From a virus, in the IMG/VR virus record IMGVR_UViG_3300023181_000062, positions 1-33,951 of that record: 33,951 bases of DNA, one strand, 5' to 3'. Under the pieces are notes generated by a model, which searched no databases, was not told the DNA's origin, and worked only from the letters and a program-made list of their open reading frames with translations. Both the position numbers and the translations under genes were made by a program. Below, piece after piece: positions 22,402 to 27,961 of the stretch; the stretch's first letter is position 1, and the number at the start of each line of letters is the position of its first letter.

Positions 22402-22526
22402 TTAGCGCCCCTTGCTGCCAGTAAAAAGTAGACAGCGATCAAGCCCCAAACTGCTGCTGTCGACGCGCTGCCGAAGATCAGCACACCAATTGAAACCCCT
22501 ATACTGTACTGAGATAGCTTAATCAT
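22398..22526 (-). CDS. Short membrane microprotein (42 aa)
   Basis: Read directly from the sequence: ATG at 22526 with GGGGGA upstream, stop TGA at 22398, overlapping both neighbours as ATGA. The peptide 'YSIGVSIGVLIFGSASTAAV' plus 'WGLIAVYFLLAARGAK' is hydrophobic enough for one or two membrane segments. Exact four-base junctions on both sides are the best evidence that it is translated. Confidence 0.6.
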   Translation of the reverse strand: MIKLSQYSIGVSIGVLIFGSASTAAVWGLIAVYFLLAARGAK

Positions 22527-23212
22527 ACGTCCCCCATAATGTTTGCGTATTTCTTGGCAATGAATACCTGACCAGCGCCAGTAACGCGAGTTGTGAACGT
22601 CGGATGCTGGACGCCTTTAGTATCGGTGTATGGCTCCTGCTCGATCACGGTGAAATATTCGCGGTCGATGTATTTTTGGTACGGAAGATTATTGGCTTGC
22701 AGAATGCCGTCATCACGCATCCGCTTAAACAGCTTGTTGCGGCCGATGCCGATGGTCTTGGCAATCTTCTCGATGCTACACACGCCGTCTACAGCCCTGA
22801 TCGCTTCGGCGAAGGCAACCTTCGGAGCGTCTGCGGCGATTTTTGCGTCCAGCGCAATGACCTTCTCCGAGTAGCCCAGCAAAGCGGCGCGCAGCGCGTG
22901 CGGGTCCATCAGGTCGAATGCTGCCGGCTGTTTGTTTTCCAGTTCCTGCCAGCGGTCAACCAGTCGGGCCGTGAACAGAGGCGACAGTTGCGCCACCACC
23001 ACGTAACTGTCGCGCTTGTTCAGGTAGTAGACGCGCTCAGCGACACCGTTCGCCCCTGGAATCCCATCCACAAACTGTGGGTAGGAAATTGCGGTCTTTT
23101 GGCAGAGGTTCACGATTGTGCGCTTCACACTGTCGTGGCGTTTTTCTGTCAACTCAGCCATTTCCTTACTGGTCATGGTAAGTTCTGTATTGTTTTGGAG
23201 ACTTAGGTTCAT
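22523..23212 (-). CDS. ant: Antirepressor: Rha-type N-terminus with ANT/KilAC C-terminus (229 aa)
   Basis: The N-terminal ~100 residues fit the Rha family ('MTSKEMAELTEKRHDSVKRT', 'YYLNKRDSYVVVAQLSPLF', 'RLVDRWQELE'). The C-terminal ~110 residues are an ANT/KilAC domain ('SIEKIAKTIGIGRNKLFKRM', ending 'TGAGQVFIAKKYANIMG'). Such proteins counter phage repressors. I chose the ATG at 23212, which fits the usual Rha start; the frame opens further upstream (ATG at 23284, no ribosome site). Directly upstream lie a 14-bp palindrome and a C4-like antisense RNA with matching target segments, which would control its expression as in phage P1/P7 immI. Confidence 0.85.
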   Translation of the reverse strand: MNLSLQNNTELTMTSKEMAELTEKRHDSVKRTIVNLCQKTAISYPQFVDGIPGANGVAERVYYLNKRDSYVVVAQLSPLFTARLVDRWQELENKQPAAFDLMDPHALRAALLGYSEKVIALDAKIAADAPKVAFAEAIRAVDGVCSIEKIAKTIGIGRNKLFKRMRDDGILQANNLPYQKYIDREYFTVIEQEPYTDTKGVQHPTFTTRVTGAGQVFIAKKYANIMGDV

Positions 23213-23252
23213 TCTTATCTTTCGTATAATCCAAGAGGCTTGAGCGGACCTA

Positions 23253-23266
23253 GACTTAGCTAAGTC
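23253..23266. repeat. Perfect 14-bp palindrome in the antirepressor leader
   Basis: GACTTAGCTAAGTC is its own reverse complement. It lies 40 bases upstream of the chosen antirepressor start. It may be an operator for a dimeric regulator, or an RNA hairpin that affects translation. It falls within an open frame that continues the antirepressor reading frame, so coding use is possible. Confidence 0.6.
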
Positions 23267-23355
23267 CTTCACATAACTATCCATTGAGGAATCGCTACGA
23301 CCCGACAGCCTTGCGCAAGTGAGGTGCTATCTTCGACGCCTCATTCTGGTGCTTC

Positions 23356-23403
23356 CCTTGCTTTGCCACAGTCCCAGTTCCAGCCCATCACCCTGTTGCT
23401 TGC
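23356..23403 (-). promoter_or_regulatory. Candidate C4 antisense target region in the antirepressor leader
   Basis: On the minus strand GCAAGCAA (23396-23403) and GGTGAT (23387-23392) are complementary to UUGCUUGC and AUCACC in the C4-like RNA, in antiparallel order. A second segment GGCAAAGCAAGG (23356-23367) is complementary to CCUUGCUUGCC of the same RNA with one bulged A. A short ORF with an ATG within the first target (GGGTGATGGGC) would be blocked by pairing. Compare a/b target sites around icd in P1. Confidence 0.65.
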
Positions 23404-23443
23404 AGTCCCGATGATGAGCCGATCAATACAGGCAGTACAGACG

Positions 23444-23560
23444 AAAAAAAGCCCCAAGAATGCTTTGACGGGCCGGCTCTGGCAAGCAAGGAGGAAATGC
23501 GCCGGTGATCCCGCACTTCCAACCTATTTGTCAGCCCGTCAAAAAACTCTTGAGGCTTTT
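23444..23560 (-). ncRNA. c4-like: C4-type antisense RNA upstream of the antirepressor
   Basis: On the minus strand three helices nest: an 11-bp outer stem (23548-23558 with 23449-23459), a perfect 10-bp stem (23534-23543 with 23464-23473) and an 8-bp hairpin (23513-23520 with 23493-23500). Two contain mismatches that become G-U pairs only on the minus strand, which fixes the orientation. A seven-U tract (23444-23450) follows. The hairpin loop AUCACC and unpaired UUGCUUGC are complementary to the leader downstream. Position directly before an ant gene matches P1/P7 c4-icd-ant. Assignment to the C4 family is by structure and context, not a database search. Confidence 0.75.
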
Positions 23561-23619
23561 ACATCACCGGACAACTCGTATTTCTTTCGCATCAGCACTG
23601 CCAGGCACTGATAGGACAA

Positions 23620-23648
23620 ATCCTACATCAAACCGCACATACTCACAA
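23620..23648 (-). promoter_or_regulatory. Weak predicted promoter for the C4-like RNA, with operator-like repeat
   Basis: -35 TTGTGA (23643-23648), 17-bp spacer, -10 TAGGAT (23620-23625). TAGGA/TCCTA arms with a 4-base gap overlap the -10 (23612-23625). Two copies of GCACTG (plus strand, 23595-23610) follow. This is 60 nt upstream of the RNA fold and may be the immI promoter; the -10 is a poor match. Confidence 0.35.
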
Positions 23649-23694
23649 GCAAATTTTTCCAAAATACATTGAGTCTCGGAAAAGCGACATTCCA

Positions 23695-23949
23695 TCACAC
23701 AATGGTCAGTTGCCGCGAGTCGATGGGGACGGCGACGTAAATGTGACCGCTATCACAATCTGGAAGGCCCGCGCGCAGAGCAAGCCGCGCCGCCTCTTTG
23801 CAGACCTTGGAGCGCTGGCCACGGAAGACGCAGCCCGAGCAATCGGGACGGTCAGGGATCGCCGCAGCGGCCTTGTATCGCATCGTGGCGGGGTCTAGCG
23901 GATCGTCAGTGCCGACGATATCGGAGAGTGCTACCATTGCGACGTTCAT
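23695..23949 (-). CDS. Small Cys-containing phage protein (84 aa)
   Basis: The start at 23949 is favoured because it forms an ATGA overlap with the microprotein upstream. It contains 'DCSGCVFRGQRSKVC' followed by 'RAGLPDCDSGHIYV', a conserved Cys spacing (C-x2-C ... C ... C) likely to bind zinc. The family is common in betaproteobacterial phages with unknown function. Confidence 0.7.
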   Translation of the reverse strand: MNVAMVALSDIVGTDDPLDPATMRYKAAAAIPDRPDCSGCVFRGQRSKVCKEAARLALRAGLPDCDSGHIYVAVPIDSRQLTIV

Positions 23950-25869: not shown

Positions 25870-26073
25870 TCAGTCTGCCAGCGCCTTAAAGGCGTCATAC
25901 AAACGCTGCACTGTCGAGCTTTGCGGGTCAGGGTTTTTGCCGCTAGCAATCTCGCTCAACGTTGCCTTGCCCAACCCAGTGCGGCGCGACAGCTCGGAGT
26001 TGTTGTATGCCTTGTCGTTCAGCTTTCGGACCACGTATTGCAGCATGGTTTCCGGGGGATTTTTCACTGTCAT
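25870..26073 (-). CDS. XRE-like HTH regulator, first gene of the leftward operon (67 aa)
   Basis: ATG at 26073 with GAGG 6 nt upstream. A HTH lies at ~25-50 ('SELSRRTGLGKATLSEIASG') with a final helix ('TVQRLYDAFKALAD'). It is close to Cro in size. Position beside the divergent control region suggests a Cro-like or early repressor function that acts on the promoters at 26103-26193. A larger cI-type repressor was not seen in the window. Confidence 0.8.
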   Translation of the reverse strand: MTVKNPPETMLQYVVRKLNDKAYNNSELSRRTGLGKATLSEIASGKNPDPQSSTVQRLYDAFKALAD

Positions 26074-26102
26074 TTCACACCTCATCTGTTTGGAATGATG
26101 TA

Positions 26103-26131
26103 ACTCTACACGATATTTATGCAGCTATCAA
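26103..26131 (-). promoter_or_regulatory. Predicted leftward early promoter
   Basis: On the minus strand TTGATA (26126-26131), 17-bp spacer, TAGAGT (26103-26108), with a transcript start near 26096, about 23 nt before the HTH gene start. It faces away from the rightward promoter. Confidence 0.55.
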
Positions 26132-26164
26132 TAACTATATGTTCGCCACAACGTAAAATAACGC

Positions 26165-26193
26165 TTTACAAATTGTTCGGCGCATGACATGAT
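26165..26193 (+). promoter_or_regulatory. Predicted rightward early promoter
   Basis: TTTACA (26165-26170), 17-bp spacer, CATGAT (26188-26193), upstream of the gene at 26225. A direct repeat TGTTCG-S-C appears at 26140-26147 and 26174-26181, 34 bases apart; the second copy lies in the spacer, a possible operator. Confidence 0.5.
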
Positions 26194-26224
26194 TCTCCCA
26201 TCGACAACGCAACCGGAGAACGAA

Positions 26225-26398
26225 ATGGGCAACTTGAAAGAACAGGGATTCCGCCTCTTGGCCAACAAAGAGCGCAACGAAGTGGAGTGGGTGCATCCTG
26301 CGGAAGTAAGTCAAGCGAAGTACGAGGGCTTCACCGACTGCACGGATATGGACGACGCAGAGTTCGACGCGTTTATCTGCCCTAAGCGCCTGGGTTAA
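26225..26398 (+). CDS. Small acidic phage protein (57 aa)
   Basis: ATG at 26225 with GGAG 6 nt upstream; an in-frame ATG at 26189 lies inside the promoter. Sequence features 'NLKEQGFRLLANKERNEVEW' and an acidic 'DMDDAEFDAFICPKRLG' end. First gene of the rightward operon. Function unknown. Confidence 0.65.
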   Translation: MGNLKEQGFRLLANKERNEVEWVHPAEVSQAKYEGFTDCTDMDDAEFDAFICPKRLG

Positions 26399-26407
26399 GG
26401 AGCCACC

Positions 26408-26936: not shown

Positions 26937-27961
26937 CCTTCTGCAAGCATCGAACGTCCTCGATGGAGAATGTTGAGCGCGGCATTCGTGTCACGATCAT
27001 GCTGTGAGCCACATTCGCCGCACTTCCACTCTCTTATTCGTAAGTCTTCCAGCCCGCTAGGGCCGCTGCGAGAACCGCACGCAGAACAGGTTACGGTGGT
27101 AAAACTTTCATTCACTTCTTCATACCATGCGCCATTCCTAATGGACTTGTACGCAAGCATTTGTTTGAAGGAATACCAGCCGGCATCAAAGACAGACTTA
27201 GCCATGCTGGTTTTTGCAAGCGCGGAGGCGCTCACATTGCCTACCGCGATGTAATCAAATTCACGCACCAGGCGAGTTGATAGTTTGTGCTGAAAATCTC
27301 GGCGCTGGGCTGCTGCCTTGGCATGTATAGATTTTGTTCTTCGCTTCTTTTTTGCGCGCTGAGCTATGGCAAGCGCACCCTCAGCCGAGCGATAGATTCT
27401 CTGAGCCTCAATTTTCTCACCAGTGGATAAGGTGGCGAAATCTTTAAGTCCGAGGTCAATTCCGATCCCGCTATCTAGATCACGAACTGGTGCAGACTCA
27501 ACCTAAATCACGATGTTCAGGAACCAGTTACCACGCGAGTCTTGTGAGAAATTAGTCCCATCCTTTATCTTCCCCGCTGGGAGTTCTCGGCTATTGAACA
27601 CGCGGAATGTTTTCTTTGCAAACCTAAAAGAGTCTCCGTCGCGCTTTAGGTCTACCCCCTTTATGGGTATCCAGCCAAGAGAGCGCCTACCCCTATATCG
27701 AAGATAGGGTTTTTTAAGTGTGGCACGAGAGCTAGCATATTGCTGGCATACCGCATTTATAGTATTAGACAGCAAGCCAAGCTCTTTGCTGCTACCGGCT
27801 GTAAGGTAGTTAAGATCAAATCCTGAAAGCCACCTTCTACCGAACCGCAACGCATCCTTTTGTCGATCATTGCAATAATTCCAAACGAAGTTGACCGCAT
27901 GGCTTTGCTTGTTCAGCAAGCCATTCAAGGATTTGACGCGGTATCGGTAAGTAAGAAGCAT
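26921..27961 (-). pseudogene. tnpB: TnpB RNA-guided nuclease gene with one in-frame amber stop
   Basis: One continuous frame of 346 codons plus stop, broken only by TAG at codon 153 (27503-27505), probably from GAG or CAG. Before it: N-terminal wedge/REC region ('RYRVKSLNGLLNKQSHAVNF', 'PYLRYRGRRSLGWIPIKGVD'). After it: RuvC-I Asp169 in 'GIDLGLKDFATLS'; a second block 'FDYIAVGNVSASAL' with Gly241 where canonical TnpB has Glu; CSAC/CGEC zinc finger (292-317); and RuvC-III 'HDRDTNAALNIL' (Asp324). A Glu at 285 ('VNESFTT') may replace the missing one, as in TnpBs with a rearranged active site. Readthrough or suppression could still yield full product. Confidence 0.85.

Follow-up and report, generated by a model that had tools for sequence, protein, structure and literature searches.

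Genes and predicted RNA elements of the locus

The DNA analysed here, in the following called the window, comprises 33,951 nucleotides of a viral record (IMG/VR IMGVR_UViG_3300023181_000062). An original prediction made from this sequence had described a C4-type antisense RNA in front of a Rha/ANT antirepressor. The antirepressor gene was confirmed, as its product contains both Rha and ANT (KilAC) domains (PF09669, E 1e-9; PF03374, E 3.5e-27). Annotated relatives are Roi-type proteins (of HK022, HK97 and others) encoded next to NinF; NinG and NinB lie upstream in the window, and the Rha/ANT gene is part of a nin-type operon. An S24-type repressor was not found in the window record. The presumed immunity region (25870-26400) encodes a 71-aa HTH protein, and the minus strand at 27503-27961 encodes part of an RNA-guided endonuclease of the TnpB-like kind (NF040570, match below cut-off). 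The features of the locus are, in the direction of transcription:

23620-23648, minus strand: probable sigma-70 promoter, predicted from sequence and pattern score (TTGTGA 23648-23643, 17 nt, TAGGAT 23625-23620)
23598-23604, minus strand: X_out, CUGGCAG, predicted partner of X'_out in the transcript that still lacks Y'
23563-23570, minus strand: X_in, CCGGUGAU, a linear, hypervariable segment lying two bases upstream of the terminator stem and a perfect 8 bp complement of 23509-23502
23531-23560, minus strand: Y, 5' arm of a terminator-like hairpin of ~25 bp (Y/Y' duplex -43.6 kcal/mol)
23493-23520, minus strand: apical hairpin presenting the recognition loop (predicted structure)
23502-23509, minus strand: X'_in, AUCACCGG, loop segment containing AUCACC, complement of X_in
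23479-23485, minus strand: X'_out, UUGCCAG, overlapping the segment UUGCUUGC of the original prediction
23448-23475, minus strand: Y', 3' arm of the terminator-like hairpin (from fold and duplex)
23444-23450, minus strand: U tract, predicted end of a short RNA of ~170 nt
23300-23419, minus strand: Betaproteobacteria-1 RNA (Rfam RF02932), a known orphan structured RNA (59.7 bits, gathering score 49.4, E 8.8e-9)
23235-23299, minus strand: 3' extension of RF02932, conserved in relatives beyond the Rfam model (alignment of 42 loci)
22523-23212, minus strand: Rha/ANT (Roi-type) gene; a start at 23212 is likelier than that of the open reading frame at 23284, which falls in the RNA extension, and the homologue in locus L002 begins at the equivalent MNL

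The predicted nested helices and terminal U tract of the minus strand were borne out. Positions 23565-23440 gave a folding energy of -64.2 kcal/mol, which was matched by none of 200 shuffles (mean -37.2, sd 4.2; z -6.4). The plus strand of the same stretch folded more weakly (-49.7 kcal/mol), consistent with G-U pairs that are usable on the minus strand only. Transcription is predicted to start near 23613; the promoter was only moderate in pattern score, and a strict consensus scan disclosed none. In the ensemble of a transcript cut before Y', X_out pairs with a probability of ~0.9 and X_in/X'_in with merely 0.18, although the minimum free energy structure includes the latter; in L002, the corresponding value for X_in/X'_in is ~0. 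Judged by sequence and fold model, the stretch 23650-23440 (minus) would form a transcription unit of its own, composed of a promoter, a bistable leader and an intrinsic terminator.

RF02932 was the sole Rfam family detected in the whole window at the gathering score. In relatives, about 65 nt of conserved sequence (GTGGCTCCGA..GAAGGC..CTAGGTCTGTCCACC) continue 3' of the model, and on this alignment the Rfam family looks truncated. RF02932 and the module are neighbours in the window, yet they are separate elements, each of which occurs without the other. In most records, RF02932 is preceded by a Cro-like gene or primase and followed by a terminase in the same direction (L037, L038, L043, L064, L047 and the window, 23300-23419). 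Where a terminase was found with it, the gene lay on the same strand and in most records downstream, with G025 as an exception and a few records fitting only if circular. As this position resembles that of nut/put sites, RF02932 might, by analogy, be a cis-acting antitermination RNA.

These data also bear on the proposed pairing of the module with short leader ORFs ahead of the antirepressor. The positions of AUCACC (from 23509), UUGCUUGC (from 23489), GCAAGCAA (23403-23396) and GGTGAT (23392-23387), as well as their antiparallel order, had been given correctly, and in the window the loop and UUGCUUGC are able to pair with 23403-23387. However, GCAAGCAA sits in the conserved loop of the first hairpin of RF02932, and GGTGAT makes up the 3' side of this hairpin's stem. 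Thus, the proposed target is accounted for by another structured RNA, and short ORFs as pairing partners found no support. The pairing itself did not rise demonstrably above chance. Its 8-nt match was equalled by 7% of loop shuffles, and while the best duplex of the window loop and leader exceeded 39 of 40 non-cognate combinations, cognate pairing was not consistently above non-cognate pairing in 20 related loci. Since the window alone, among the 21 loci compared, clearly exceeded the non-cognate combinations and the 8-nt run is so readily equalled, the downstream pairing is most likely incidental, and it was rejected as a target on the strength of the cognate/non-cognate comparison. Moreover, the Rfam C4 model (RF01695) did not match at E <= 10 within 23200-23720 on either strand, nor at the gathering score anywhere in the window, by which membership of the C4 family was rejected. 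The ANT domain, finally, is absent from most loci carrying the module (present in 6 of 27 long records). We therefore consider it extremely improbable that a C4-type RNA targets the antirepressor leader further downstream. What stood was the choice of AUCACC as recognition loop, the conserved partner of which is not the leader but CCGGUGAU, 54 nt upstream on the same transcript. That a regulatory RNA of a phage could silence an operon through base pairing also remained plausible and gained support, whereas the particulars (C4, target and partner) were wrong.

Related loci and the hypervariable segment

A pattern scan for RF02932 yielded 49 viral loci. Further scans added more modules, some of them before leaders other than RF02932, so that the comparison covered about 60 viral loci, drawn from metagenomic records that are mostly incomplete. 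Many RF02932 loci have a module like that of the window upstream, while others directly follow a gene or promoter-like sequence. The module also precedes other conserved leaders not known to Rfam, e.g. GGCCGCACTGTCCGCGATAGCAA...GTGTCAGAGAGCG (L186, L187, L191, L195, L198, L071 and L164), which by their conservation are perhaps further structured RNAs. BLAST searches revealed no near relatives of the H- and J-type modules in annotated phages and none of the window module in plasmids, and bacterial genomes scanned with the Roi protein or RF02932 contained no true match. RF02932 alone pointed to two phages, of which one, the finished public genome MW202545, carries a module with a perfect TTGACA-17-TATAAT promoter.

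Throughout the ~60 loci the order of elements was X-Y-X'-Y'-U tract, often preceded by a recognisable promoter. A crude promoter scan scored at least 9 in 32% of the modules vs 13% of shuffles, a modest enrichment. In 23 modules from ten sequence groups (Y/Y' picked automatically, except in L014, where it was assigned by hand), Y/Y' amounted to ~25 bp with -27 to -46 kcal/mol, followed by a U tract; hairpin loops were roughly 10-55 nt long in all modules examined. The X/X' helix links the 5' end with this loop and thereby crosses Y/Y'. Because the linkers between two helices of such length comprise only about 0-5 nt, their coexistence appears sterically unlikely, making them mutually exclusive on paper. 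Partition functions were in line with this: the probability of X/X' exceeded 0.5 before Y' and fell below 0.1 in the full RNA in 34 of 54 modules, several of the remainder being cases in which the script had chosen a minor helix. In L188 and similar loci of group H, Y alone can make a small hairpin, and RNA in the X/X' state is therefore probably branched. Two additional structural readings were discarded. A tRNA-like X/X' fold with a T-arm-like hairpin (GGGTTNNATCCC, Roi group) has a loop of 6 nt, and ARAGORN detected no tRNA-like gene in the five loci tested; X/X'' pairing around the terminator was strong in the Roi group only and is no general feature.

The hypervariable part of the module is the segment immediately 5' of Y, to which we refer as the code. 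Its distinct versions number 33 among the 34 loci of group H and 19 among the 23 of group J. The 8 nt before Y showed a nearly random pairwise identity of 30% (H) and 26% (J), compared to 84% and 98% for Y and 78% and 91% for the constant 5' part, flank values that are somewhat inflated since the groups were defined by scan patterns fixing flanking bases. This inflation does not affect the pairwise alignments of L019 with L033 and of L039 with L046, which extend well beyond the scan patterns. Over ~370 nt, the former pair diverges only in the code and its complement, apart from some isolated substitutions and a single indel of 13 nt, and the differences of the latter are almost confined to the code region. 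Modules of the Roi group C did not disclose a hypervariable X_in.

Variation of the code is compensated in the loop. Cognate X/X' duplexes had mean energies of -14.6 (H) and -16.3 kcal/mol (J) vs -8.0 and -9.0 kcal/mol for non-cognate ones, and none of 20000 permutations reached the observed sum in either group. The nearest homologue of the window, L002, contains the code GACUCUGU and the complement ACAGAGUC in place of CCGGUGAU and AUCACCGG; the code is wholly different and the pairing is kept. Compensatory changes in homologues were seen in X/X'; pairing with the leader target was not conserved in 20 related loci. A loop that complements an upstream segment of its own leader, a characteristic of P4 CI-type RNAs, is present in the window (8 bp), and it covaries in groups H and J. 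The X' code is located within the apical hairpin loop in 42 of 49 modules, with a mean unpaired probability of 0.87, compared with 0.41 across the remaining loop segment. Copies of the code elsewhere in the records were not in excess (27 vs 22 expected), by which an antisense function against another phage gene was rejected. Outside the module, the record does not repeat the loop segment, so that X_in is its sole consistent partner. Antisense specificity elements, such as plasmid incompatibility loops and phage immunity RNAs, typically show hypervariability that is limited to the segment engaged in pairing and to the complement on display.

Proposed self-recognition and rival explanations

As only the pairing segment and its displayed complement vary, and these partners could meet only in trans, we propose that the module is a self-recognising transcription attenuator under selection for immunity-type specificity, a reading to which we give a somewhat better than even chance. 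In the nascent RNA, X/X' would pair and keep Y in a loop, so that the polymerase would tend to continue into RF02932 and the operon that follows. If Y/Y' paired instead, transcription would stop at the U tract and an RNA of ~170 nt would be released, with X'_in presented in the apical loop that caps the ~25 bp stem. With X_in at the base of this helix and X'_in at its tip, the structural model places the RNA's own X_in out of reach, and the two should be able to meet only in trans. X'_in of the short RNA would then pair with X_in of other nascent transcripts, block X/X' and favour termination, which would silence every transcription unit with the same X_in and result in homotypic immunity or silencing at co-infection. 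Divergence of the code among related phages would permit escape from cross-silencing. The regulation could also have the opposite sign, given that IsrK activates in trans. The low X_in/X'_in probabilities in the window and L002, as well as the lack of a hypervariable X_in in Roi group C, speak against this reading.

Some of the evidence is shared by a mechanism acting in cis only, with X/X' as antiterminator and Y/Y' as terminator, in which a protein, a ribosome or an ion decides and the short RNA is waste. The mutually exclusive helices, the terminator, the promoter-like sequences of the module and its position ahead of large operons including terminase all suit such an attenuator, which would however need neither a hypervariable pairing segment amid fixed flanks nor its display in an apical loop; we regard it as unlikely. 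A short RNA that, like IsrK, activates instead of silencing the operon downstream by binding in trans to the read-through RNA would agree with the layout isrK-terminator-orf45-anrP; an antirepressor-like gene follows in the window too. Downstream pairing with an orf45-like target was not found, though, and the genes downstream vary among the loci, which makes activation of this kind distinctly improbable. The matching changes might even arise without selection if the module were a quasi-palindromic hotspot at which template switching keeps the strands complementary, paired changes being the expected product of quasi-palindrome correction. Yet the variation is confined to a code of 8-12 nt localised in the apical loop, while the longer palindromes alongside, Y/Y' and X_out, are conserved, and we consider a mutational artefact very improbable.

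The distribution of protein repressors among the records is in favour of the self-recognising attenuator. An S24 repressor was encountered in 0 of 24 long module-bearing records but in 10 of 14 RF02932 records without module, a contrast (naive Fisher p 2e-6) in which related records were counted apart and for which phage lineage and the incompleteness of records are confounding factors. Tyrosine integrases are rare (5 of 50 records), so that most carriers may be either temperate phages with no integrase of a known type or virulent ones. If they are virulent, competition at co-infection and not lysogenic immunity would drive code diversity. That the carriers are phage-plasmids was rejected, as no ParA was present in 27 records.

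To our knowledge, very few examples of phage immunity based on RNA have been described (P1/P7 C4 and P4 CI). Here, a specificity element can be compared in dozens of natural versions together with their respective matching partners, which makes recognition rules, cross-talk and the evolution of immunity types directly testable by eight-base swaps. The module also gives context to the orphan family RF02932 and points to a way in which phages devoid of an S24-type repressor might regulate a major operon. Code words in the loop and at the 5' start that change together between phages in nearly constant surroundings are as expected of a self-recognising, self-silencing viral RNA. It is conceivable, albeit at somewhat less than even chances, that this represents a widespread protein-free self-recognition of phages, in which one RNA carries both a code and its displayed complement, copies with the same code are silenced by termination, other codes escape, and RNA replaces the protein repressor where that is absent.

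Comparison with known regulatory RNAs

ColE1 RNAI and R1 CopA recognise their partners through an exposed loop; its sequence determines specificity and differs from one compatibility group to another. The module would share this exposed-loop recognition; the plasmid RNAs are transcribed from the opposite strand, whereas both partners of the module reside on one RNA. P1/P7 C4, a leader RNA of phages as well, complements short stretches within its own operon; an antirepressor lies downstream, as in the window, and C4 has a role in immunity, which the module may have as well. The module differs by the lacking RF01695 match and target pairing and by a long terminator stem in place of the C4 fold.

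Parallels exist to IsrK of the Salmonella prophage Gifsy-1, which is organised as promoter, sRNA and Rho-independent terminator with partial read-through into a leader and an antirepressor gene; IsrK adopts alternative structures, and its short form acts in trans on the longer RNA of the same unit (PMC4825925). A lambdoid phage context is common to both. The module has a predicted promoter, alternative structures in the fold models and a predicted terminator that would release a short RNA, and this RNA would act on its own longer form. The order of promoter-like sequence, short-RNA unit, terminator and antirepressor gene is present in the window, where read-through into that gene would be required for an IsrK-type RNA; as mentioned, the ANT gene is restricted to a minority of the long records. 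IsrK pairs downstream with orf45 and activates translation, a type of target that the module does not have, and the available text describes no hypervariable code for IsrK (PMC4825925). The Rfam isrK model had no match in the window.

The CI RNA of P4 (seqA-seqB-seqC) complements an upstream segment of its own leader and causes premature termination of its own operon and immunity (PMC4825925). Complementarity to an upstream leader segment is also observed in the module, for which termination and immunity would follow by analogy. P4 CI additionally has a downstream site (seqC) and is processed, while the module RNA would end at an intrinsic terminator; a conserved second, seqC-like complementary site was not found in the loop-leader comparison of 20 related loci. 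We propose that the module works in the manner of P4 CI, P1 C4 and IsrK; it may belong to neither the P4 CI nor the IsrK family, and C4 membership was rejected by the tests above.
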